A stretch of 64,000 nucleotides of DNA from Symbiotaphrina buchneri (taxonomy: Eukaryota; Ascomycota; Symbiotaphrinales; Symbiotaphrinaceae): the NCBI GenBank assembly GCA_001599915.1, contig BCIG01000024.1:456402-520401 (forward strand), read 5' to 3'. Shown piece after piece: positions 1 through 62,891 of the stretch. The notes under the pieces were generated by a model. The model saw only the letters and a program-made list of their open reading frames with translations, did not search any database and was not told the DNA's origin. The stretch's first letter is position 1, and each line of letters starts with the position of its first letter. The translations under genes were made by a program, and so were the position numbers.

Positions 1-3000
1 TTGCGAGTCGCGACCTGTAATGCTCTGGGCGCTCCACATGACATCGATCCAACCTTCCTGAGACACGATCTGGAAAAGGATGAACAAGGAAGAGCCAAAG
101 TTATCAAAACTATAATAAGGATTGGACACGGCACGAGGAGCCAGTACCTCCCAATTATAAGGCGTGCTGTTAAACTCGCCCACGCAATCAGAGAGATTGA
201 TTATGCTAGATCCCCCATCGTTACAGCTCTGCATCTGGCCGTTGAACAGATTGAGCCCGTATATTGCAAAGGGTATCAATAGACTCAACGAAACGAATGC
301 AGCCTAAAGTGAAGCATGAGCGATTGTGCTAGTAGCCGATGAAGGCAACGTACCGATATAATTTTCCAGCCGCCCAGAACAATGACTGAATGGAACGTCT
401 CCTTGGCGCTATCGCTCACACTGAGCAGCCTCAACGCTCGCAACGCCTTGAAGGCTCCAACTGCGCGAGAAATGGCGTCCAAGCCATAGAGAGAGGTTGC
501 AACATTGATCCAGAGCGTGATAAGCACTACGCCGTCGATGAAACCCCATGTGCTCCTGAAATAGGCGTTCGGTGTGAAAAATAGTCCATCCGCAATGACT
601 TTAATTGCCGCCTCGGCAGTGAACAGCCCAGCGAAGCCAAGATCCAGATAGTTGAACCAATTGCGCGTTGTCTCACCATGATGCTGGAAATACTCTTTTT
701 GATATAACGGCGTAGTGACACAAGCCAGTAGGACCATAGCAACGATGGCAGCATAAATGAAAGCGGAGAAACCGAACCAGACCCACTTCACAGGCTCCAC
801 TCCCTCGAATCTGCGCGGACCTCGCCCAGGGCCGACTATTGATTGGCAGAATCGTCTCACGGGGTTGTCTGGCCGGAATATGAACAGCGACACGTTGTAT
901 TTGGGGTGTTTCAGAAGATATTCGCGTTGTGCCCTTTTGCGAGCCTCCGTAGCGGCCATCACCTCAAGTGCAAGATTCCTGGGGTCTACATCGTCGTAGG
1001 CGCGTGTGTAATGCAACCTTGAGTAGAATGGGTTGGGCTCCTTGTTGGTCACAATGCTGATTACTCTTCTCTTCAAGGAAGAGAAGAGGTCCTTCCTCTC
1101 CGGTGGGGCTGGGGTTTCCGGCCGTATTGTCTCATCAGCGGCCTTCGCATCCGACGGGTCAGGCTGGTCATCGAGAAAATCTTTAACCACTGCATCTTTC
1201 AGAAGCATCTCGAGCTGTGCGCCACCGTAGTCCAGTGGATCCCGTCGCTTCGCCCCTCGCCCAAATCTGAAGATTGTGGCCAAGGAGAGGTTTCTGACAC
1301 AGTCAGACAAACTCACAGAGCTTGACATGCACAGCACTCACCCATGATTCGAACCGCCCAGCTCTTTACGCTGAAGGAACCCCCTGACCTGTTGCAGTCG
1401 CTTTTCGTCCTCTGATACATCAAAGTTCTCTTGTATGACAGCAATAAACATGTTCAAGACGATCACTGAATGGATTTCATTAGACTGGAAGCGCATCATC
1501 GGCAGGAACCACTTACGATTGGCGAGAATAAACCATATGACGAAGAACGTGGCACCCATCCACGCCGTTCCCCATTGGGCGTCATACTGCGTGACATTAT
1601 AGACAAGCGCAGTCCAATTCTCGCTAGAGAACACTTGATACATTCCCAGAAAGGCATTGTATATCGTAAAGAAGGTCACCTCGATAGTGTTGCCGTTGGC
1701 ATCAACCGCAGGGATCTCGCCCCGAAACATTTGTACTGCGAAAATTGCAGCAAGAAAAGTGAGAAGAAAGACAAATAGGATGAGGTTCAATACACCCTTG
1801 ACATTGCCGAGCACAGTCATCTGCGACCGTTAGCAAGGTCTCATTTAGAAGGATGATTTGAATGTACAATTAGATTCCGCGTCAGCGGAACAGCCAAGAC
1901 AACCCGGTATATTCTGAGAATCTGGAATATAGTGAGCCACGCATAAGGCTGCCCCGAACCGCGTATTGGGGGAAGTTGAATAACCGCCGTGATGACGGCA
2001 AGGGCAAGGTCTATGCAATTTCGCAATTTCCTGAAGAAACCGCGCCAATCGGCCACGAATCGGAAAATAATCTCGAGAAGCAGAATGATGGTGACAGCAG
2101 TTTCCGAATGATCTTCACGACGATATTAGTTACAGGCCAGGCGATAAACAGGGTCGGACCACTCACTTATGAAGTCCTGCCTTGATTCGGACATGGCCGC
2201 CGAGCGGAAGCACTGCACAAGCAGGTCGTATGTGATGAGAAGAATCCAAATCCACTTCGTCCGATCATAATACTGTTGTAGTCCGCTCGCTTTTCTAGGT
2301 TCTTCATCCTCTACGGCGAGCCGATTACTGAAAGATTGTTATTTGCGAGTTCCGAGTCAAATCAGATCCAAGGGCCGGTATATACCTATCTTCATTGGTA
2401 AAAGCGCTCTTTGCACTTTCTTCTCTTATAACTTGGAAAGAGGAAGTTATGACAGCAATAAGCTAGCAAATGTCAGCGAGAGAGGCCAAAGCTCTGCCTC
2501 TAGTTCCTCACAAGATTGGCGAGCCACAAGTACATGACAACGATACCGGCAGCAAAGACTGGCAGGGTTAGTCCCAAGCCTTTTCACTCGGTGAAGCACT
2601 TACATAAAGCAGCCGCGAGATAATCACTATCTGTGGTATAGTACAATATGTCCGAAAACGTGTTTGAGCTCATGATGACGAAGACAAGCTCCAAACTTTG
2701 GAGGATGTTATCGAAACTGACAGTGCCATTGTAGGGATTTTCGCCCTGTACGCAGAAAGAATTCTGTGGACACAAATAACCTTTGTGCGTATCTGTACCA
2801 TTGCTTCCATCTGAAAGGACCCAAGGCATGGCAGCGCCGGTAACATTATCGAGATGGCCGCCACAGAATTGAAAGGGATCTGTGCTGGTGTAATTCGACT
2901 GGACACCGCTCGGGTCGACCCAGACACACTTGCGTCGAAGACTGGATTTGAAGCTCTGCACGCCGATAATAGCGAAAAGAAGCCAGAAGAATCCAATGAG

Positions 3001-4701
3001 GAACGCTACATTCACTAGGGTCGGAGCAGCCCGTTTCAAACTTCGCAGGATGACCGCGGTGCCTTGGGTGAGCCCCAATAATCGAAGAACTCGGAGACAG
3101 CTCAACATCTGGAAAATATAGATGTGCTTTGTAGCTTCGACACCGAAACATGCCATGGCAAAGGATATCCAATAGGACAAGACGGCGACCAAATCTAGTC
3201 GGTTGAAGGAATGCCTTAGAAAAGCGCGCCGGGCAAGGCGGTGACGCTGTTGCCAATGAGCGTTTCCGAGTTCCTCAGGTCCTGATGCGAAGTTCTCGGT
3301 GAAAGACCGCAATATGGAAGGTTGTTGAGCAGAGAGCATGCTTGGTATTTTCTTCTTGTTCAAGCCCCTGTCCAGGGAGAGAAAATTCCGTCCTTTTTCA
3401 GCAAGAGCGTGCCTGAATCCCTGGCTGCGATCAATGGTGCTATACTCAGCCGCATTCAAGACAAAACCAGATACCACAATTCTGGCCAGGATCTCCAGCG
3501 TATAAACTATGAACAAAGCCAAAAGCGCGTAGTCAACCCCTGAGGAGCCCCATTTAGAAGGACGAGGATGCTCGTATACTGATCTTCGGGCACCGACGGC
3601 CAAGAGTACAGCCTGTGCCATGATGAGAACAAGGATGACAGGTTCCGTTAACGGATGGACCAGCAGTTCACACAAAAGCAGTCTGAGCTTGTTATCAGGT
3701 CCAATAAAACCAAGAGATCTACCTTTCAGAGGATTACTCGATTTCGGATCTGCACTAGGCCGGCGCAAATCGGATTCTGTTCGGCTAGGTTCCTTTTCAA
3801 GGGGCGAGAGCGCCTCGGCACCCTGGTCGTGAGCATAAGCAAGCATCGCAGGGAATGACGGAGGCGCATCCATCCTGGCTTCACTAAGGCGGCTCTCGCG
3901 TCGCGACTGCTCCACAACATTTGGTTCATTACTTATGTTCACCACCCGCTGTGACATCTTCCGGACCATATTGCCAGCCTTGGACAGCGGAGAGGCACCA
4001 AGCGATGGGGATAAGGACCTTTCGCGCGTACTCCGGCTTCCAGAAGGTGATATGCTCTGTCCATCGTATTGGCTCGCTCCAATTTGTCCCAGATCATCAC
4101 CTAGTCGCGCGCCAGGTGAGTCGAACCGAACACTCTGAAGACTCGGCCGTGCATGCTTAGCACCTCCACTGCCCGATTGATATGTTCCGCTGATAGGTTG
4201 TATATTGCGACTGTCCGTAAGGGGGGCCGTGTCACTATCATCAGGTGACAAGTAGTGTATGCTTGATTCAGAGGCCTCTCCAAACCCTCTAAAGGACGAA
4301 GGTGAGCGCTGCCCTCCACCTCCAGAACCAAAACTGAGCCCAGCCATTCCAGTACCAGTCTGAAAGCCTTCATCATCGAGCGGGGACATCGCATTGGCAG
4401 GCGCCGCATGAGGAACATTGAATGATGCGGCAGGGGTGACGAGACGAAGCTGAGGCGGCTGCGCAAGTCGCTCTGTAGGAATGGGGGAATGTTCTTCGAG
4501 CCGTTCATATCTCTGGTTCAATCCGCCCCGTGCACTCCCAGGCTGTCCGCTTCTTAGCAGGTTTCGTCCCCTTCCGCTGTCACTTCTGGAACGCCAGCTT
4601 CCACTGGTGGGAGACGCCTCCTGCGGGCCAGGCGGTCGCGAAAGGTTTTGTAAAGGTATGGACTGCGGAGTGGAGGGATGGCGATCGTCATGCGGGTTCA
4701 T
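1..4701 (-). CDS. CCH1: Voltage-gated calcium channel Cch1, 5' part (cut by left edge)
   Basis: Pore subunit of the fungal high-affinity Ca2+ uptake channel (with Mid1) in the plasma membrane. Exon model: join(<1..303, 354..1293, 1342..1465, 1517..1820, 1868..2112, 2167..2327, 2386..2462, 2512..2558, 2604..4701), complement; phases agree across all eight introns. About 1433 codons are present; the family usually exceeds 2000, so domain IV and the tail lie outside. A Ser/Pro-rich N-terminus of about 340 residues comes first. Domain I follows with pore motif VIMSSNTFSDI, domain II with YQVFSSENWTAL, and domain III with FQIVSQEGWIDVMW. The filter residues are therefore N, E, E for domains I-III; I recall Asn in domain I as typical of fungal Cch1. 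The start was taken at 4701 (MNPHDDRHPS), not the in-frame ATG at 4788, because the latter precedes low-quality sequence; this choice is an inference. The shortest proposed intron (1294-1341) is 48 nt. Confidence 0.95.
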
Positions 4702-5642
4702 CGTGGACAATGATGCCTGAGCATCCAGTCCTTCAAAGGCGTGCTGGTACAATGGCACTCTCGATAGTTGGTATGCCGAACATTGCAAGGTCCGAGCTTT
4801 CTATAGAGAAAGATGCACGAAGTCGAACTGAGACGGCGATATGTCCTTAGTAAAGCAGGGGGAACCCACGAACCTGAGCTACCGAGCACAGGCTGAAGGG
4901 ATCCCTCCGAAAAGCGTTGAGAGGGAGAGTGGTCGTCTAACACTCTCGCGAGGGCGGGCGGACAATGCAATGACTAATCTATGTGATTATATTGGAGATC
5001 GAAGCCGAGAATGGCTCGTCGTAGGCGTACGTGTCGTTGTACGTGGACGGAGAATTATCGAGTCTGAGGTACAGGTAAGGGGATACCTGCCTTTTGCGTT
5101 TACAGGTACTGCGCACCCTTGGCTTAGCTGAAAGTATCCAATATGGTGGGCTAAGGCAAGGTACAGGTTACCTCACTGCGTACCTGCCTACCTATCACCT
5201 TAAGGTACCTTAGGTAAGGTACAGTAAGGTACCTCATCTTACTCCCTTACCTTACCTTACCTTACCTAAGGTACGGTACGCAGAAGCCCCTGCCGAAGAT
5301 ATTTTTAGACGCAACAGGTGGGGAGGGTTGCTGCCGTCTCAGAAGGAGAGCCGCACCCCATTGAATCTAGTCTTAGATCACACAGCCTACCTCAGTGTAT
5401 TATTTGTGACCTTGAAGCATTACCGGCTACTTCTGTTCGTTGCTATCTCAGGTTTCTGACGCACAATCGGGATATCATAAAACAACGTCTCGCTCCAATC
5501 GCAAATCCCAAGCGCCCAGATGAAAGCCAGACAGACATTGATGCCTTGTTTACGCCGTCCTCCGTTCCCTTCCATAGAGCAGAACTGCATATGCACACGA
5601 TGAGATCCTAGCCACAACCATCAAATTCCGAGTAATATCAAA
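4702..5642. other. Intergenic: CCH1 promoter side, with AAGGTA/TACCTT cluster
   Basis: This stretch lies upstream of CCH1 and downstream of the UBTD-like gene. I see no convincing gene in it. From about 5070 to 5277 the DNA is dominated by overlapping AAGGTA, GGTACC and TACCTT words, many self-complementary. The same vocabulary recurs near 15.84-15.96, 22.3-22.4, 32.07-32.24 and 35.6-35.7 kb. Confidence 0.6.
5070..5277. repeat. AAGGTA/GGTACC low-complexity cluster
   Basis: Dense run of words such as AAGGTACCTTAGG, CTTACCTTACC and GGTAAGGTAC on both strands. Because TACCTT is the reverse complement of AAGGTA and GGTACC is a palindrome, the tract can fold on itself in many registers. I recall similar tracts in intergenic DNA of other Pezizomycotina; no function is known to me. 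Confidence 0.6.
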
Positions 5643-26126: not shown

Positions 26127-28431
26127 ATGGTAGGCGTTAAACGCCGAAGCGGTGCCGCATCTGGGGCTGCGGAGTCCAGCGACCAGGTTAGCCTGAAAAA
26201 GCAGAGGCTTCAGCCTTCGTCCTCGCATAAGAACCATAATACACGAAAGACTACTAAGCACGCTGCGGGCGACTTCGATTCAGCCGACTCTGAGGAGTCA
26301 GATGTAACTGATGGTCATAGATTCAACGGCCTTGCTGGCAGCGATGATGAAGAGAGCGATGGAGACTCAGGTTCTGAGACCGGTGTCCGCATGACTGGGG
26401 CGTTGCCTGTGGATGATGCTATGGAGACTCAGGTTCTGAGACCGGTGTCCGCATGACTGGGGCGTTGCCTGTGGATGATGCTAAACAGAATAAAAAGACA
26501 ACGTCTGACACGGAGACTTCCCTCCTAAAGTGTATGTTTCAATGCGGCCCCTGCAATGCATCCAGAGCCCCTGCTGATGGCATTTTAGCTACTTCATCCA
26601 AAGAAGCCCATGCGAAGCAGAAGACACTCGCGCAGGAGCGAAAGGCTGCGAAGCCGAATGCTGATCTTATTCAGCGCTCGAAAAAGATTTGGGAGCGCCT
26701 GAGGAGGAAATCTCATGTGCCGTTGGCTGAACGCAAAAAGCTAATTGAAGAACTGTTCGGGATTATCACCGGCAGGGTCAAAGACTTCGTCCTAAAGCAC
26801 GATGCCGTCCGCGTGATCCAGACCGCGATCAAATATGGAAATCTGGAGCAGAGGAAGATGATCACTCGAGAACTCCAGGGGGAATTCCGGGGTCTTGCAG
26901 AAAGCAGATACGCCAAGTTCTTGATCGGGAAGCTGCTGGTCCATGGGTACGTCCTGGAACTCTATTCGCACTTAGCTTCCCGCGCTGATATTTGATATGT
27001 AGCGACAACGATATTAGGGATATGATTATTCCTGAGTTCTATGGCCATGTGCGCCGCTTGATAAAGCACGTGGAGGCGTCCTGGATACTTGACGACATCT
27101 ATCGGACTGTTGCAACCCCGGAGCAAAAGGCCAACATCCTACGAGAATGGTACGGCCCAGAGTTTGTAATTTTTCGCGCGAATGCGGCGGAAGGTGTGCC
27201 GGTATCTGCGTTGTCGGACATAACCAAGGCGCAGCCTGAGAAAAGAGCAACAATTATGGCTTCGTTGTATGAACTCATTAACCAGCTCGTGCAGAAGAAA
27301 ATGACCGGCTTAACATTGCTCCATGACGCGATGCTGCAATATTACCTCAACGTCAAGACTGACAGCGAGGATGCCACGGAGTTCTTGGAACTTATCAAAG
27401 GAGATGAGGCGGGCGATTTGCTCAAAAACCTTGCTTTCACAAAATCAGGCAGCCGGTTAGTCTGTTTGGTACTCGCCCATGGAACAGCGAAGGATCGGAA
27501 ACAGATCTTGCGCACATACAAGGACATCATTCCTACCATGGCCTTTGATGCAAACGCACATCTAGTGCTGTTGGTATGCTTCGATGTCATTGATGATACT
27601 GTCCTTACTTCCAAGGCTATCTTCCCTGAGCTTCTGGGAAAGGGCGATGTCAGTTCTTCGGCGAGCCAACAACAGACGCTTCTGGATATGATAGTGGACC
27701 TAAACGCTCGAGTGCCCGTCCTGTACCTCTTCGCGGGTCCAGCCAAGTGGTTGGTCCCCACCTCCACCTCTGCGCTGCTGGATGAAGTTCATGACATTCG
27801 TGTGAACACTTCCAAGAAAGACGCGGATGTTCGCAGGAAAGAGCTCCTCAGGTCCTTATCTCCTCCACTGCTGGCCTTTATCGCACAACAAGCGCCTGCG
27901 CTTCTGCAGACCAGTTTCGGCTGTCAATTCATCACGGAGGTAATAATAGGTTCTCAGGCCTCGGAGGAAGAAAGGCTGCCAGCCCTGCAAGCAGTTGCTG
28001 CTGTTTGCGAAGGCAATCCAGCAGATGATGGTCATATTATTAGCAGTCCCGCCGCTGGCAAGTTGCTGAAGACGTTGGTACAAGGAGGGAAGTTCAACCA
28101 GAAGTCCGCCAAGATAGAGCTCGTTGAGCTGCCGTTAGACTTCGGAGATCTGCTCTTCGACAAGATTCAGGACCATGTTGTGGGTTGGGCGACCGGAGAT
28201 GGAAGCTTTGTCGTTGTTGGATTGCTGGAAGCGCAGTCTTTCTCGCGCAAGAAGGAATTGCTGGACACGCTCAGGAAGAACAAGAAGGCTCTGGTAAAGG
28301 CCAGCCAGCAGAACCCAAAAAAGGAAGAAGATGGCGGCGTCCAGCTGGCCAACGGGAAGAAAGGTGCCAGTAAACAGTCTGCAAAAGAAGGGGGTAATAA
28401 GGGGGCGAAGATTTTGTTGGAGAAACTGTGA
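26127..28431 (+). CDS. PUF6: PUF6/PUM3-like pumilio-repeat protein, frame interrupted by an exact 62-bp tandem duplication
   Basis: Model: join(26127..26370, 26433..26946, 27003..28431), 728 aa, where 26371-26432 is either a new intron or a mutation. Lys-rich acidic start (MVGVKRRSGAASG; DSEESDVTDG), then KKIWERLRRKSHVP and pumilio-type helical repeats (ELFGIITGRVKDFVLKHDAV; GLAESRYAKFLIGKLLVHG; DDIYRTVATPEQKANIL; LAFTKSGSRLVCLVLAHGTA). A CPL-type region and Lys-rich tail follow. Homologues (yeast Puf6, human PUM3) are nucleolar; Puf6 acts in 60S ribosome assembly and ASH1 mRNA repression. The 26947-27002 intron (GTACGT...TGTAG) is ordinary. At DNA level the frame hits a TGA at 26454-26456 inside the second duplicate; removal of exactly one copy restores it. 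Confidence 0.9.
26359..26483 (+). repeat. Exact 62-bp tandem duplication (two copies)
   Basis: Copies 26359-26420 and 26421-26482 are identical over all 62 bases, and one further base (26483) also matches. 62 is not a multiple of three. Each copy contains CTCAGGTTCTG, so the pair creates a potential GT (26371) and AG (26431-26432) exactly 62 nt apart. Confidence 0.97.
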
Positions 28432-39623: not shown

Positions 39624-40396
39624 TGTGAGTTCAAGGGAAAAGCAAAGAAGATGAATGAAGTGATATATCCAAGTGCGGATGAGGAGTGTCTACATGCCGA
39701 TGTAACATAAACGATGTCGACCGAACAGACATTTCTCTTTGCCACCAATGGCAGTGCAGCATTGCATTGTTGGAGCTTTTCAAGTTGTTCTCTTCATGCT
39801 GCTCTTCCTTCGACGCAACTTCTTGAGATTCATTATCCCCGTTGGCAGTGCAGCATCCGGGATGCGATATCAAAGGACAGATCCTTCCCTAAAAGGGGAC
39901 GCAAAAAGCTCCACGAGTTGGAGCAGCGTAACCTGAAGGTGGACAAATGACGGGGAACGAAGCGGGCATCTCATGCACCGCGGTGTATACGCATATATAC
40001 TGACAAGAGAGGATGCATCACCAGTTGTCGACGTATTGTCGTCCTGTCCGTGTCCTGCTTCAAAATCGGCCCAGCGTACATGTCGTGCTGGGCGTTGACC
40101 TGGTCTTGCGAGTGCACTTCTTCTTGGCGATACCGCGTCCCAGTGATACGGCGTATGCGTTCCTGACATGCGTTCCTGACTATATAGAGGATAAGTCTGC
40201 TCAGCAGTAGCGTATATATATACAGCTACCATGGCGCATCGAGAGCTGCAAGGCGCCTGCTCCCTTCCTTGGCTTCTCAGACGTTTGTCTTTCTTGGACA
40301 AACACAGATTCATCACACTTCAATCTGTCCACTCATGCCTCATAGGGCTGCAAATGATGGCGCTGCTGCGGCGAGACTGCTGCGGCGAGACTAAGG
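39624..40396. other. Intergenic, no gene seen
   Basis: Upstream of the RING-type gene. Only short overlapping frames are present. Confidence 0.4.
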
Positions 40397-42558: not shown

Positions 42559-43055
42559 CAGGCGATGCCTACATAGTTTTGTTCACGCGAATCACGCCTG
42601 ACAAGGCATCAGGATGGTAATCTCAAGGATTGACATGTTATTCGGGTGAAGCTATGGGTTGAGCGAGGACGGTTCGCCAGTTGTTTGCCTTTAGAATTAC
42701 AAGAGCTTACAAGGTAGTAATTTACCTAAGCGTTATTCTTCCACGTTCAGACATAAACCATTAAATAATCCTGAGTAACTTGCGGCAAGGTAGAAACAAC
42801 TAGAGCAAACATATGGTGAATAAAGTACTGTCGCTGAGTCGTGAAGTGGGTACTTGTAACCTGCGTTCCCACGCCGTGGACGCTCCTCTCCCCTCTTTCC
42901 TCATCCAATCTCCTTCCTCACCGTGGACGCTTCTCTCACCTCGTTCCTCTAATCTCCCCCCTCACGCTCCACCTCTCCTACTATTCATCTTCAAATTCCT
43001 CAAAGCAACTTACTCAAATCTACTTACCACCCACCAACAACACGCGCTAGACAGC
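42559..43055. other. Intergenic / promoter of second BTB-like gene
   Basis: CT-rich leader at about 42890-43030 preceding the ATG at 43056. A frame continuing upstream in phase from 42813 is probably leader sequence. Confidence 0.45.
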
Positions 43056-44119
43056 ATGTCTTTGAACGCAAGCACTGTTGACAGTACTGTCAACCGCGAT
43101 CCGCCCAGGGCTCACAGCAGCGGCAGAGTTGTGATTGACTTTGAGGGAGACCTCATAATAGCCATGAGACCCAGCAACGTATCCTTCTTAGTATCTAGGA
43201 AGATATGTCGCCTTGCGTCCCCTGTCTGGGACAGAATGCTAGATCCGGACGGTCCTTGGGTGACAGCAAACACTGGGACTGATGGACATAACTCTATCAC
43301 TATAGAGGATGACCACGACATCATGCACGTCATTCTGAAGGCAGCTCACCATCGCTTGTACGCCCGTGTGGAGCCAAACAATGAAGCCGTCATCGATATT
43401 TGTGTCTTAGTTGACAAATATGATTTGATAAGGCCCATGAAAGTGTGGTTGGAGCTGTGGCGGAAAAGGCCAACCCTCAGCACGGAAGCACACCTGATCA
43501 CCGCCTGGGTTGTCGGTGATGAACACCGTTTTGGTCATGCAGCATATGGCATTTTTAACTCTGTTTGTCAAGATGAAAATGGGGATTGGAAGGCTTGCGG
43601 GACGGTTGTCCGTCAGGGCGTTTTGGACATGGATGTTTTCAGTGAGTCAAGACAGCTTCCCGCAAGCCCAACATAGCTGACGTAGCAGGCCATTTTCTCG
43701 ATGGCCGTGCGTTTCACATTCAAGTTCTTCTTAGAGCTTGCGAAGAATGCCATCCCAGATTGGACCAATCGGACACGTGGAGGTGCCTCGCCCGCAATGG
43801 CACGAGCAACTACTACTGCCTCAGAACCTATAGCCTTGGACTGCACGAGCTTTTACTTCAATACAAGCTCAGGGCACCTGGCAACAAATTCCCTGCTGTG
43901 CATGACCTCCAGACTTGGTCATTAGACGACTTACGAAAGACACTGCGAGGCATCTACTCACGGAAATACGACGCAGATCCCCACAGGCACTGTCACGTCT
44001 GGTCGGAAATAGAAAGACGGTTCAACCTATATCTTACAAGACAAGCCGACTACTTAGGCCAGGGAGAGCTGATGCTTCCGAGCCACAAAAGACATCTCAG
44101 AGAACAGGCTTCCAGATAA
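43056..44119 (+). CDS. BTB/POZ-like domain protein, two exons
   Basis: Model: join(43056..43641, 43689..44119), 338 aa; the intron is GTGAGT...TAGCTGACGTAGCAG. The BTB region reads VVIDFEGDLIIAMRPSNV, FLVSRKICRLASPVWDRML, SITIEDDHDIMHVILKAAHH and AVIDICVLVDKYDLIRPMKV. A C-terminal helical region follows (WVVGDEHRFGHAAYGIFN; then AFHIQVLLRACEECHPRL; LHELLLQYKLRAPG; WSLDDLRKTLRGIYSRKYDA). The LASPVWDRML and KYDL motifs are characteristic of fungal BTB proteins that expand in accessory regions. The ATG at 43056 is preferred over one at 42813 because the intervening sequence is CT-rich leader. Confidence 0.78.
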
Positions 44120-46720: not shown

Positions 46721-47562
46721 AAGAAGAAATCGATGCTATGTCAGAAGACATCGATTGGTGATCACTCCGCGGTGATACATACATGTCGTACTTTATACAC
46801 GGTATCAACTCCAGCTTATCGGAGCATTCGCCATGAGGTGGGATGGTAAGTTGCAACGATCCACATTCGAGAGATATGCATTCAATGGTCCATTGTGACT
46901 AATGCGGGTGCTGCAGCTGGGGCCGAAAGGCTCATTCTGGGAATGCTCCTATCCCAGAACCCGGAGATGGCGATTGATTACGAACTAAACGCATCTCGCA
47001 TCGGCAATGGTGCCACGGCGTCCTGAGATTGAACACCGACTTAAGTACATCAAGGAGAAGGTCGAAGATACCGAAGCCGGCCTCGATCTCGAGTCAGCAG
47101 AGTCCATAGGTGCAACGACGGGGGATGGCAAAGAACGCGAGGAGCAGAAGACGGACTGGTTGCTCCTTGTACTTTCAAGAACATCGAGTGAAGTACATCA
47201 CGGCTCCTCGTCGGCTTCAGAACATTGCGGTGGCCGGCGCACGACCGTGCTGTCAGGCACTTATCGCATCCTTGACCCGAACCCGACGCCAAGGGCCAAG
47301 TGGACTCAATACCCTGTCAATTCGGGCGTTGGTGGCCACCATAATGCATATGATCAGAGGACGCATCAGCTCGGAGGAACTTTGAATGACCTCTTTGGCG
47401 ATATGAAGCGGGGCAATGTCGACCCCAGGTCCTATGGGGATGTCAACCAGCCCCTCATGACTCTGCAGCATCTTCAACTTCCGATTACACTCCAAAGGTC
47501 CTTTTCAAACAAAAGGTCTTCCAGACCATGAGCGAGTCTCGTGCAGTGGCCAAGAAGCAGAA

Positions 47563-48453
47563 ATGGATGGAAGCCATTTCATCGGTGGCAGTGCCAACGG
47601 GAGCCCCACGTGGGTGGGTGGAAGCAACGCCCACCACGATTTGGGTTGTGTGGTCCGGCTGGGACGGGCCCACCAACCCACGACGGAGCAAATCGTACGG
47701 ATGCGGCGTTCCTACTATAGAGTTATCATAACTCATAGTCGGGGCACTCCAAAGTCCCAGGCGTGTGACAAATGCAGCTGGAATCAGGGGAAACTCGCTG
47801 GCCGTGTTGGGCATCCCGATATCAGCTCGGATGCATGTTTCAATTGCATAAGAACGAGGCCGCCAACGGGCCCTCTTCTGGAGGGATGCTCCAAAAGGCA
47901 TCCCAATCGTCCAACTCTGGCAAACAATGGTGATGGCTATTCTGCTGCATCTCGTGCCACCCCAGCGGCGTCCTTGGGGACGTCCTTTGACCGTGACGGT
48001 TGTCGTCGTTATTCCGGAGAGATGTTTCAAAAAGCATCTCGTCCCGCGGATGAGATGGACATGTCTGACGGATCTGCAACCATTGGAGCGTTGTCTCATT
48101 TTTCCTCTTCCGAGGACGACAGCATCACTCGTGGTGTTCAAAATGTGGACATCTCGAATGAAGACACCACGAGTGATGCTGTCTTTCTCGGCTGCTCCGC
48201 CAGATCTCGTGCTCTCTCTTCGGAAAAGGATAGCATCACTCGTGGTGCTCGCAATGTGGAGATCTCGAATCAGAACACCACGAGTGATGCAGTCCATCTC
48301 ATCTCTGGCGGAGCAGCCGAGAGCGATAATACTCCGGATTATGCAAACCTGCAGGTAATCCACACGATTGAAGCACTCAAAGACTACCTTCATCGGCGGA
48401 TCAATAATCAAGAATACGAAGACGAGGCGAGCACGCCTGGAACACGAGGATGA
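47563..48453 (+). CDS. Uncharacterised Cys-motif protein with duplicated hairpin-forming repeat
   Basis: Open frame of 296 codons. It has FIGGSANGSPTWVGGSNAHH, then ACDKCSWNQGKL and DACFNCIRTRP...GCSKR, a double C-x2-C arrangement vaguely like the DUF3716-like modules nearby. A Ser/Asp-rich tail follows with two repeats: DSITRGVQNVDISNEDTTSD and DSITRGARNVEISNQNTTSD. At DNA level each repeat is a near-perfect hairpin (48121-48180 and 48232-48291). The reverse strand is also open for 308 codons over the same stretch, a consequence of the inverted repeats, so the coding strand is not certain. The ATG at 47563 is not strongly supported. Confidence 0.4.
   Translation: MDGSHFIGGSANGSPTWVGGSNAHHDLGCVVRLGRAHQPTTEQIVRMRRSYYRVIITHSRGTPKSQACDKCSWNQGKLAGRVGHPDISSDACFNCIRTRPPTGPLLEGCSKRHPNRPTLANNGDGYSAASRATPAASLGTSFDRDGCRRYSGEMFQKASRPADEMDMSDGSATIGALSHFSSSEDDSITRGVQNVDISNEDTTSDAVFLGCSARSRALSSEKDSITRGARNVEISNQNTTSDAVHLISGGAAESDNTPDYANLQVIHTIEALKDYLHRRINNQEYEDEASTPGTRG
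48121..48321. repeat. Nested inverted and direct repeats
   Basis: AGCATCACTCGTGGTG at 48121 pairs with CACCACGAGTGATGCT ending at 48180. The same arms recur at 48232 and 48291. In addition CTCGGCTGCTCCGCCAGA (48187-48204) is the exact reverse complement of 48304-48321. Confidence 0.9.
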
Positions 48454-48465
48454 AGCGGCTGGTGG

Positions 48466-48670
48466 AAAGGCTGGTAGGCACCCCGAAGGCCGCAGAAGAC
48501 CTCACAAGAAATCACGGATACCAGCTAGACATCGTGGTCGTACAAGGATGGCGAGTGGATCCCCAGGAAGCATACAAAATGGCCTGGAAATCATCGAAGC
48601 CGAAGCACAATTTCTCGCGCCCATCCATGGGCAAATCATTGCGCGTCTGAAGCAACTGAAACGGCCTCTC
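48466..48670 (+). pseudogene. DUF3716-like module, truncated copy
   Basis: Encodes TPKAAEDLTRNHGYQLDIVV then VQGWRVDPQEA, the same leader as the copies at 37.9 and 49.7 kb. It then departs to AWKSSKPKHNF instead of entering the Cys motif. The segment from about 48577 onward recurs at 56537-56630. Confidence 0.55.
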
Positions 48671-51873: not shown

Positions 51874-52572
51874 ATGCTCTCAGTGGAGCACTGTGGGAGT
51901 GGTAGTAGGCGTGAGTCAGACAGTGTCTTGCTATATCATTTTTTGATTGGCCCTAGTGAAAGGGCCACCACCATTGTCCCGTCGGCCAGATTGAAGTCGT
52001 CGGCTGCGTTGCAGAGGGCACTTGGAAGCCTCGCCCTGAAGAGATAATGATAACATCAGCGGGCGGTTTCGAGGCCGGTTCATCGGTGGCACCGCAACCG
52101 GGAGCCCAACACGCATGCATGGAAGCAACGCCCAACACGATCGTCCAGTCATTCAATGCTGCAGTGTCTCATCCCTAATCCGCATCGATGTTGGTCTTCA
52201 GTGGAGTTCGGCGTGTTCCTTGTTCTGACATGGAGTTAAATGGTTGCAGGCCGAGGGTTGTACTCTAACTATATTTACTGTTCTTACTGTATTTCAAGAC
52301 TACTCCTGGAGAAGTGCGAATTCGATCGTGACTATGAGAACTCGTCTCAGGGCAAAGTGGACATTTCGGGGACAGCCAAGCGTCCAAACTACATGTGCCA
52401 GTGAAATCTCCACCAAACTTCTGTAGAATTTGTGTAGAGACTAGACGCCGATTGTCCGAACTGTTTCCCCTCCGTATCAGATGCGTAAGAATTGACCCTA
52501 AAATTTCTGTAGAAGCATTTAATCCATTCTTCATCACCTCAAACTTGGTCTCACAGACTTGACACCGACACC

Positions 52573-53568
52573 ATGTCTTTGAAACATCTCCCCTTGCGCG
52601 GCATGACTGTGGCCATCGACCAGACAGGAGACCGCGATCTTCTCGTCCTTCCTGATCATACCAAGTTCCAAATCAGCACGCTTGCTCTAAGTCTTGCCAG
52701 TCCGTATTGGGACCTTGTCCTGGACCGTGAGGGAGCTGACGGAGCTCAGTTGACCGCCCCTCTTACCGCTCACGCCAACACCCAGACTGTCATGTTGATG
52801 CTCGAGATCATCCATGGCCGCACCGAGCACATCCCAGAAAGCATGGACGACGAGGCCCTGTTGATCGACCTCTGCAAGCTCACAGAAAACTGGGAAGCGT
52901 ATACTGTCGTCCGTCCTTGGCTCAAGTCATGGATGCAGCCCGCTGGTAACCTCTCAGCTCCTGCCGAACTCTACGCCGCGTGGGTGGCAGGAAGAGCCAT
53001 CAGCGCCGAAGAAGCGCTCCAGACTCTCTTTTCTAAAGTCTACGTTACTCACCATGGCAGGCCGAATTTTGGCCGTGGGGTGGTCCCGAAGCTCGTGCAG
53101 GAGATGGACATGTTCACTGTCATGATGGAGGAGCGGAGTCAGTACCTCGAAAACCTGGCCCATGTTTGCTACAAGATCCTCTACAACCGTCCGGCCCCTG
53201 ACTTTCCCGGCATGGCAATTATTCTTCTTCGGGAGGTGAATGTAGTGAGGTACGAGAAGTTGCTTGACGCTGTCATCGAAAGCCTGAAAGACTGGAATAT
53301 TCATATCGATCGAATAGATTATGGTTCTGCATCCGTTTTTCCAGCCTGGGGCGTCAATAAGATTACCAGCAAGGTGTTGGAAATCTTCAGGGTTACTGGA
53401 CGGCAGCAGGACATTGAGCCCAGGGGTCACATTTGGGTTGAGGTTGGTCTTCAGGGATATTTGGAGGGCGAGATTATCAAGTACTGCGGCTTTTGTCCTG
53501 GGCGATTGGGACACCGTCTTCTGACGGAGAAGCATCTCATTCATCTGTTGATGCAGGCAAGGAGATGA
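52573..53568 (+). CDS. BTB/POZ-like domain protein
   Basis: Single exon, 331 aa, ATG at 52573 with the context CACCATG. The N-terminal region reads TVAIDQTGDRDLLVLPDHT, FQISTLALSLASPYWDLVLD, VMLMLEIIHGRTEHIPES and LLIDLCKLTENWEAYTVVRP. This matches the BTB layout of the 43.1-kb gene (LASPYWDLVL versus LASPVWDRML). The C-terminal half is helical (LYAAWVAGRAISAEEALQTL; LENLAHVCYKILYNRP; HIWVEVGLQGYLEGEI). The partner or target is unknown. Its frame is unbroken and third-codon positions are G/C-rich, unlike the broken sequence on both sides. Confidence 0.78.
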   Translation: MSLKHLPLRGMTVAIDQTGDRDLLVLPDHTKFQISTLALSLASPYWDLVLDREGADGAQLTAPLTAHANTQTVMLMLEIIHGRTEHIPESMDDEALLIDLCKLTENWEAYTVVRPWLKSWMQPAGNLSAPAELYAAWVAGRAISAEEALQTLFSKVYVTHHGRPNFGRGVVPKLVQEMDMFTVMMEERSQYLENLAHVCYKILYNRPAPDFPGMAIILLREVNVVRYEKLLDAVIESLKDWNIHIDRIDYGSASVFPAWGVNKITSKVLEIFRVTGRQQDIEPRGHIWVEVGLQGYLEGEIIKYCGFCPGRLGHRLLTEKHLIHLLMQARR

Positions 53569-58500: not shown

Positions 58501-58999
58501 ACAGGCCTTTTATTCGAAAACACCTCAACGTTTGTCTCTCTGTAGTCGGCAAAAGAATTGGGACCCAATAGTGTCCCATGGTGACACGGGCCAGTCTCCT
58601 CATCTTGTGTCACTTCAAGTACCGCCTTATGGAGGCCAGAAGGCCGCTGAGTTTCTGGTCTCACAAGTTCTGGCAAGCTCCTCTGCAAGCCTAATTTCCG
58701 GCATGCGGGTTGTGCCTGCTACAACATCTGACTGAACACGGACTAGTTTAAGCACAGAGGATGAGCGGGCAAACCGTGAAACGGAAGACCGAGAATGATA
58801 TGGATCACCCGACTTTTTGATTCCCTTACTGAGGACTACGCTACATTCGTTCAGACTCCCAAAAGTCGATGGTACGAACATGCTAATCCTGACTTTTTGA
58901 CCCTCTACTGATACTCTCACCTGGAACAAGAACGGCTACGGAGCTGACGCGGTGGTACAGCCGTCAGTTGCCATGAACATGGCCTTGCGCTGTAACGCC
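55566..58999. other. Accessory DNA with no firm gene
   Basis: Scattered frames include MTWEWEWDEDNCRELSWTEE (about 55.97 kb) and KATVTVRKRKALTTFFAAAA (about 56.37 kb). About 56537-56630 is a copy of 48577-48670. Nothing else is supportable. Confidence 0.35.
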
Positions 59000-59000
59000 T

Positions 59001-59482
59001 TAGTAGCTATGCTGCAAGAACGGTGTTTTGCCGCGTGTCACTCCGACTACAATTAGTCCCCTCGCAGCGCCGTACTTTCCGGGTCTACAGCAGAGGGATG
59101 CCAACACGCAGATGATCATGGCCAGTCCCACTATTGGCATCAACAAGGCTACCCCGATCAAGGCTCCCCTTGCTACCGAACCTGCAAATGTGGACTCAAC
59201 ATGTTCAACTTGGACTTATCTTTCCTGTATATGCAAATTTGGACTCACCACAGCGGGCTCGCTGCAACGCCTTAGTAGCTATGCTGCAAGAACGGGGTTT
59301 TGCCGCGTGTCACTCCGACTAGAATTAGTCCCCTCGCAGCGCCGTACTTTCCGGGTCTACAGCAGAGGGATGCCAACACGCAGATGATCATGGCCAGTCC
59401 CACTATTGACATCAACAGGCTATCCCGATCAAGGCTCCCCTTGCTACCGAGCCTGCAAATGTGGACTCACGACAGCGGGCTC
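59001..59482 (+). repeat. Dispersed module R2, copies b and c in tandem (period 272 bp)
   Basis: Copies 59001-59200 and 59273-59482 match each other and 45534-45736. In copy b the frame RVTPTTISPLAAPYFPGLQQ, RDANTQMIMASPTIGINKAT, PIKAPLATEPANVDS is open throughout. Copy c loses one base near ATTGACATCAACAGG and shifts frame. Confidence 0.88.
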
Positions 59483-61694: not shown

Positions 61695-62090
61695 AAGACT
61701 GCCACACCAATAATATGTCCGTCCAACGCGGTGGAGGATACGAGTCCGTGAAAGAAACGGCACATTGAGAGAGTCTTTACGATATCAATACTTGAACAGG
61801 ATGATTGCGCGGATACTCTTGGCAGGTGAGCACCACTTGAAAACCTTTTGCATGATGCACTCAGCTAAGATGTCAGAGGCACAGTCAACGCTATATCCTA
61901 GAAGGTTTGAGGGGTCAGCAGATATACAACCATTCGAGGGACTGCGGGACGAGAACTGGAGAGCATGCAGTCTACCTTGAGCGTTGCTGCTCCTGCTGTT
62001 GTCGGTAATGCGTCAACCTGGAGGGAGAAGGACCCAATTCGGGACGATGAACCGATGCTTGCTTCTGAAACTCCATAACCAAAGCGACCT

Positions 62091-62891
62091 ATGAGTCTGG
62101 TGACAGCGCCTCGACGCCTACCCTCCATTACTTTGGGTTTCTGTCAAGGGGCTTGGTCGTCGATCTCACTCCGGATTCCCAAAGGTTGGAGTCAGAGTAC
62201 CTCGGATGAGTCTGTGAAGTTGATCCCGCGGGCAAATGGGTCTGGTGATAGCGCGACGACGCCTACCCTCCATTGCTTTGGGTTCTGTCAAGGGGCTTGG
62301 TCGTCGATCTCACTCTGGATTCCCAAAGGTTGGAGTCAGAGTGACTCGGAAGAGTCGGTGAAATTGATCCCGCGGGCGAATGGTGTGGAAGGGAGCCGAG
62401 TGGTGAATATGGATACTTCTCATTTCGCCGTCGCGTCATTCCCTTCCTCGGAAACATTGACCCAGATTGGTCGGTCGGCAAGAAGCGGAAGAGACTCGCA
62501 AACGTCGAAGGCAGGAAGAGGAAATCGGAGTGTCTTTAACGACTCCGACAATCGTGTGACTCCGGCTCGGATCAGTCCCCACGCTGCGCCGTACTGCCTG
62601 GGTCTTCAGCAGAGAGACGCCAACGCTCAGATGACCACGACCAGTCCCACTATTGGCGTCAACAAGGCTATCCTTGTCTGTTGGTCATGTTGCAAAGGGA
62701 ATTGCACGCTGTGTCACATTTTGCACGGTCGAACGCTACAAGGTATTGAGATGCTCTGCATCATCGCCTATTCTGACGAATTCGACGAGGACGCAGAGAA
62801 GAAAGCAGACGACTTGATTCCGCATCGTCGCGTACTCCGAACTTGCAAACCTGGGACGGCATGCTACACTACGCGCCATCATCGTCGATGA
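62091..62891 (+). CDS. Hypothetical protein with 48-residue tandem repeat and R2-like module
   Basis: Open frame of 266 codons starting at ATG 62091. It holds two repeats (GFCQGAWSSISLRIPKGW, SQSTSDESVKLIPRANG; then GFCQGAWSSISLWIPKGW, SQSDSEESVKLIPRANG). After SSETLTQIGRSARSGRDSQT comes the R2 module (NRVTPARISPHAAPYCLGLQ, QRDANAQMTTTSPTIGVNKA). A Cys/His cluster (CWSCCKGNCTLCHILHG) and a short acidic end complete it. This is the only R2 copy embedded in a long open frame, so it may show what the parent protein looked like. No family is recognised. Confidence 0.4.
   Translation: MSLVTAPRRLPSITLGFCQGAWSSISLRIPKGWSQSTSDESVKLIPRANGSGDSATTPTLHCFGFCQGAWSSISLWIPKGWSQSDSEESVKLIPRANGVEGSRVVNMDTSHFAVASFPSSETLTQIGRSARSGRDSQTSKAGRGNRSVFNDSDNRVTPARISPHAAPYCLGLQQRDANAQMTTTSPTIGVNKAILVCWSCCKGNCTLCHILHGRTLQGIEMLCIIAYSDEFDEDAEKKADDLIPHRRVLRTCKPGTACYTTRHHRR
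62096..62384 (+). repeat. Two-copy tandem repeat, period 145 bp
   Basis: Copies start at 62096 and 62241 (TCTGGTGAxAGCGC). Copy 1 has one extra T in GGGTTTCTGTC relative to copy 2, changing the frame at the start of the first repeat only. Confidence 0.88.

Follow-up and report, generated by a model that had tools for sequence, protein, structure and literature searches.

Introduction

In the Rogers model of intron gain, an exonic segment is duplicated head to tail, each copy carries a proto-splice site, and removal of one unit restores the reading frame. Such introns are on record: according to the literature cited in PMC4974935, a tandem-duplication intron of ATP2A1/ATP2A2 was reproduced experimentally, and a study of fission yeasts reports two of them (SPOG_01682/SOCG_00815) among 62 gains, with non-identical repeats that use AGGC (PMC3629103). 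Fission yeast ssp1, in turn, acquires short tandem duplications that break the frame, are reversible and are described as microhomology-mediated (reviewed in PMC13207564). Local duplications that disrupt conserved genes may also be false: gap filling is a documented source of them in vertebrate assemblies, with the cases described at gene and exon size (PMC9516828), and 'negative gaps', in which flanking contigs overlap and need joining, are described in PMC3158087. Here we analyzed a 64,000-nt stretch of the Symbiotaphrina buchneri genome (GCA_001599915.1, contig BCIG01000024.1, positions 456,402 to 520,401; hereafter, the window), in which an exact 62-nt tandem duplication breaks the frame of a gene of the Puf6/PUM3 type. 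An initial annotation had interpreted it as a newborn intron, with loss of function or an assembly error as alternatives. We find the alternatives better supported, and a false duplication from assembly the most probable among them.

An exact 62-nt tandem duplication of possible assembly origin

The two 62-nt units adjoin each other and are 100% identical. The run of matches at spacing 62 is 63 bases long, as A 26483 also fits, and the array therefore extends over 26359-26483, as first annotated. Identity of this length between neighbouring units is not due to chance, and the duplication is the longest exact tandem repeat among those listed by Tandem Repeats Finder for the window. As the DNA stands, the frame opened by ATG 26127 holds 109 codons ahead of the TGA at 26454-26456, the stop that had been annotated, and the last 11 of these codons lie inside the second copy in another frame. 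The peptide of the duplicated stretch is encoded again in a second, overlapping frame (26417-26995), which then continues into the Puf6 body. The premature TGA is the only frame break seen; the remaining length of the gene is open and strongly matched.

We assign a probability of about 0.43 to the hypothesis that the duplication is a false one made during assembly. This weight is a matter of judgement, as is the order of the rivals below it: a real frame-breaking mutation, a newborn intron and translational bypass, with a small remainder. A word size of k = 63 is in common use, and de Bruijn contigs built with it have k-1 = 62 bases in common, which is exactly the period seen here. Under this hypothesis, the assembly joined two contig ends with such an overlap, or the edge of a gap to the sequence that fills it, and left the shared bases unmerged; through this presumed joining error the overlap would be written twice, creating both the exact tandem duplication and the frame break. 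The organism itself would then carry one 62-nt copy and an ordinary Puf6 gene. The exact identity of the copies, the k-1 period and the lone frame break in a conserved gene that is open elsewhere favor an artefact, with a real mutation next, and the lack of convincing splice signals is also in its support. Because the breakpoints share only 1 bp, on the right side, and none on the left, there is no pointer in the sequence to a homology-driven duplication. The non-identity of repeat units, which served in the fission-yeast intron study as an argument against assembly error (PMC3629103), does not apply here since the copies are identical.

Several observations weigh against an assembly origin. 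No N occurs anywhere in the window and no gap is visible at the junction; in this respect, and in its far shorter unit, the duplication differs from the false duplications of PMC9516828. The same assembly retained two short exact repeats and two longer diverged ones, and the 62-nt unit is the only exact duplication of about this length in the window, although a stretch of 64 kb would hardly be expected to hold another. Assemblers of short reads are more prone to collapse a tandem repeat than to create one, and a false duplication would be unlikely if accurate long reads were used. In the parts of the assembly-duplication literature that were covered, no text was found that attributes false duplications to k-1 overlaps, and collapse of tandem repeats is noted as rare in PMC3158087.

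The interrupted gene and the possibility of a real frame-breaking mutation

Judged from its sequence, the interrupted plus-strand gene is Puf6/PUM3, a ribosome-assembly gene. In a search of PDB chains, the best solved relative of the main exon was 8ia0_CZ (E 4e-148), and two chains of KIAA0020, which we take to be PUM3, also matched (E ~4e-36; three sequences in all among the matches listed). The piece preceding the main exon matched the same chains from its residue 56 onward, so that the best matches over the body are chains of the Puf6/PUM3 type, to which the main exon adds a CPL domain (PF08144, E 2e-32 in Pfam). The matches to 8ia0_CZ stop at residue 208 before the second of two probable ordinary introns (Table 1) and restart at residue 210 beyond it. 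The first of these introns is a multiple of three without an in-frame stop, and its retention would keep the protein open. Short introns and the Puf6 match point to a filamentous ascomycete as the probable source. The duplication sits upstream of the matched Puf residues, in an N-terminal piece for which neither a Pfam family (E up to 0.001) nor a PDB chain (E up to 10) was found. Against viral_contigs and genome_contigs, collections described as viral and prokaryotic, the 476-residue Puf6 exon had no confirmed relative (3 and 17 pattern stretches, respectively), and an exact 39-nt probe from the 62-nt unit had no match in either.

Table 1. Coordinates of the duplication and of the surrounding Puf6/PUM3 features in the window
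Feature	Position	Strand	Remarks
5' Puf6 frame as the DNA stands	26127..26456	+	ATG 26127 to TGA 26454-26456, 109 codons
62-nt unit, first copy	26359..26420	+	Listed by Tandem Repeats Finder
62-nt unit, second copy	26421..26482	+	Identical to first; base 26483 fits the period
Intron proposed earlier, 62 nt	26371..26432	+	CAG/GTTCTG...ATGAT...CTCAG/G; poor donor, near-miss branch, ordinary acceptor
ATGA overlap	26453..26456	+	Downstream-frame ATG 26453 overlapping premature TGA 26454
Probable ordinary Puf6 intron, 57 nt	26532..26588	+	GTATGT...CTGAT...TTTTAG
Probable ordinary Puf6 intron, 56 nt	26947..27002	+	GTACGT...CTGAT...GTAG
Main Puf6 exon with CPL domain	27003..28431	+	Open to TGA 28429-28431; PF08144, 8ia0_CZ

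A serious contender, which we rank next after an artefact, is that the duplication is real and recent and that this isolate carries a Puf6 allele with a broken frame, of the loss-of-function or knock-down kind. Translation would stop at the TGA at 26454 and the transcript would probably be degraded; the 109-residue product, which has no Pfam match, would end ahead of the Puf sequence. Mutation by tandem duplication is ordinary, and such an allele, perhaps unfixed or arisen in culture, would be likely to revert through loss of one copy. The duplications of ssp1 resemble the present one in being short, frame-breaking and potentially reversible; however, a single base pair common to the breakpoints sets this duplication apart from the microhomology-mediated class, in which several identical bases are expected there. 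A disabled conserved gene should also be rare in a sequenced isolate, at least if Puf6 is single-copy here. The gene had been annotated as of an essential type, which is too strong, as PMC8338941 implies that yeast Puf6 is a non-essential factor whose loss leaves cells cold-sensitive. A broken allele would thus be viable in principle.

With rates set to 1e-9, 2e-9 and 5e-9 per site per year, the lack of any difference between two unconstrained copies puts 95% upper bounds of 24, 12 and 5 Myr, respectively, on their age. Zero divergence, from which a new birth had been read, is compatible with a recent origin and is not by itself proof of one. Because no further disabling change is seen downstream, the allele, if broken, must be young, which counts against this explanation; the open downstream frame is in that case a better sign of youth than the identity of the copies.

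Splice signals of the proposed intron

We further analyzed the possibility that the duplication acts as a newborn spliceosomal intron under the Rogers model, with the stretch from GT 26371 to AG 26432 removed from at least part of the transcripts and the single-copy reading restored. The anatomy proposed in the initial annotation holds: CAGGTT, and hence AGGT, is present in both copies, the units stand in tandem as expected for a duplication-born intron, the distance from GT to AG is exactly 62 nt, and its removal restores the single-copy frame. This restoration was dismissed as evidence for an intron, because it holds arithmetically for any tandem duplication that loses one unit. AGGT is likewise common, being found in 2,423 of 17,352 62-nt windows (14%) taken from 18 of the 30 open reading frames (ORFs) in the window.

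We scored the candidate with a model built from 23 introns of the window, chosen by hand among 89 rows that match the consensus (a GTRNG donor, a CTRAY branch site and YAG). The donor CAG/GTTCTG, which has neither a purine at +3 nor a G at +5, reached -6.8 bits, a value equalled or exceeded by 81% of all window GTs; the 23 introns reached 5.2 to 10.6 when each was left out in turn. Because the 23 introns had been chosen by consensus, the base frequencies of 2,022 Fusarium introns (PMC5677156) were used as an independent check. In this table the candidate donor scored -1.84 and the two ordinary Puf6 donors 8.39 and 9.52; only 0.4% of 200,000 simulated donors were as low as the candidate, and 57% of 6,992 GTs in the window scored at least as high. 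Both models thus agree with the initial annotation that the donor is weak: it departs from the GTRNGT-like donors of the organism's introns and is no better than a typical GT under either model.

The 3' half of the candidate is better than had been thought. The proposed intron contains no CTRAY or TTRAY branch site, whereas CTRAY is reported in 91% of Fusarium introns (PMC5677156), and the claim of a missing textbook branch stands to that extent. It has two branch-like sites, ATGAC at 38 nt and ATGAT at 16 nt from the AG end, the latter being the best one: it nearly matches CTRAY and lies within the 8-20 nt of the model introns. The acceptor is ordinary (2.6 bits, with model introns from -3.1 to 9.7, and 28% of all AGs as high), and the length of 62 nt falls inside the 47-86 nt range of the 23 modelled introns. 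In a relaxed donor test of 34 rows, 16 acceptors had a strong 3' half, with a GTRNG donor for 11 of them and none for 5, a test too loose to give frequencies. By eye, a CTCAG-GTT-CTGAG inverted repeat is present at each proposed splice site; it is absent from the predicted RNA fold of 26340-26500, which is unremarkable (z -0.41; 67 of 200 shuffles at least as stable).

Taken as a whole, the candidate scored -0.4 (the 23 model introns, in sample, 20.3-27.3) and was 19th of the 28 frame-restoring GT-AG pairs that start within 26127-26531; 18 others therefore outrank it, with the top pair at 5.7. When each of the 2,423 AGGT-holding windows was duplicated in silico, 48% gave an intron scoring at least as high as the candidate and none reached the lowest model intron. 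The candidate is thus middling for a random duplication, and its low score alone does not set this duplication apart. A gene-parsing script, with a codon table from 8 ORFs and 21 introns (those of Puf6 excluded), gave from ATG 26127 a best parse of 166.9 with another weak intron (26383-26432), followed by 158.1 for the proposed intron and 138.7 for a start at ATG 26453. The second place of the proposed intron speaks for splicing over such a start and the first place of its weak competitor against it; both carry little weight, as the script over-predicts and put four introns inside the homology-confirmed Puf body.

A poor-scoring donor can still be used, and pairing on the exon side may help; splicing of the proposed intron is therefore unlikely, yet conceivable. 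Two classes of donor are described in intron-rich species, with a more uniform consensus in intron-poor yeasts (PMC11732430). The known tandem-duplication introns share with this locus the head-to-tail exonic segment, the proto-splice site in each copy and the frame restored by removal of a unit. They differ in that the donor here is very weak, the branch site is only a near miss and the case is known from DNA alone; the two fission-yeast introns also lack the identical copies with AGGT found here. In summary, the headline of a newborn intron fares poorly on donor, whole-candidate score and rank, and we consider it improbable. Slightly more doubtful still is its specific form, a zero-divergence Puf6 intron spliced inefficiently through the non-consensus CAG/GTTCTG, reliant on the exon side, and through the ATGAT branch. 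Should splicing be inefficient in this way, the duplicate might combine a partial loss of function with the beginning of an intron, a proposal that we hold equally doubtful.

Possible translation from the downstream frame

A real duplication might also be tolerated unspliced if ribosomes stopped at 26454 and restarted at ATG 26453, or initiated there directly. The resulting Puf6 would be complete except for its initial stretch, which has no match. ATG 26453, which overlaps the TGA in the tetranucleotide ATGA, shares the frame of Puf6 and precedes the matched Puf sequence; it is the sole ATG of the downstream frame before that sequence, besides one within the probable intron 26532-26588. However, eukaryotic ribosomes reinitiate inefficiently after 109 codons, and the C at -3 of ATG 26453 is a poor start context. 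With no unusual RNA structure nearby and the lowest crude-parse score of the three options, such a bypass is very improbable, and less likely than splicing.

Other repeats and features in the window

The other exact runs of at least 18 nt at spacings of 13-399 belong to repeats, diverged or spaced, near 50.6-50.9, 59.0-59.2 and 62.1-62.2 kb. Direct 158-nt copies at 58988-59145 and 59260-59417 (spacing 272, 97% identical, exact run of 86 nt) represent an older, diverged local duplication that was kept apart in the assembly. At 62091-62383, a tandem repeat of period 144, with two copies about 91% alike, lies within an open frame (62079-62891) that reads a repeated peptide and has no Pfam match. 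Short exact tandem repeats of two copies each occur at 40155-40180 (period 13) and 40363-40392 (period 14), about 200 nt apart. Open frames of about 330 codons overlap on both strands at 47461-48501, and both read similar ITRG...TTSDA repeated peptides by eye, which suggests inverted repeats.

At 285-4800 on the minus strand, ion-transport domains (PF00520) occur in two large pieces that are possibly one calcium-channel gene, presumably of the Cch1 type. The open frames 42804-43676 and 52513-53568 share a similar stretch (..SFLVSRKICRLASPVWDRMLD.. and ..KFQISTLALSLASPYWDLVLD..) and look by eye like diverged paralogues; we take them to be fungal BTB-like proteins, and neither has a Pfam match. 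Scans of the window for Rfam families (gathering threshold) and tRNAs were empty.

Implications

If the duplication is an artefact, it illustrates that a conserved gene broken by an exact duplication of a length typical of k-1 calls for a check of the reads before any biological interpretation. Should it instead prove real and spliced, the locus would offer a rare view of an intron at its birth, the source sequence still intact, and an indication of how weak the donors accepted by a fungal spliceosome can be.
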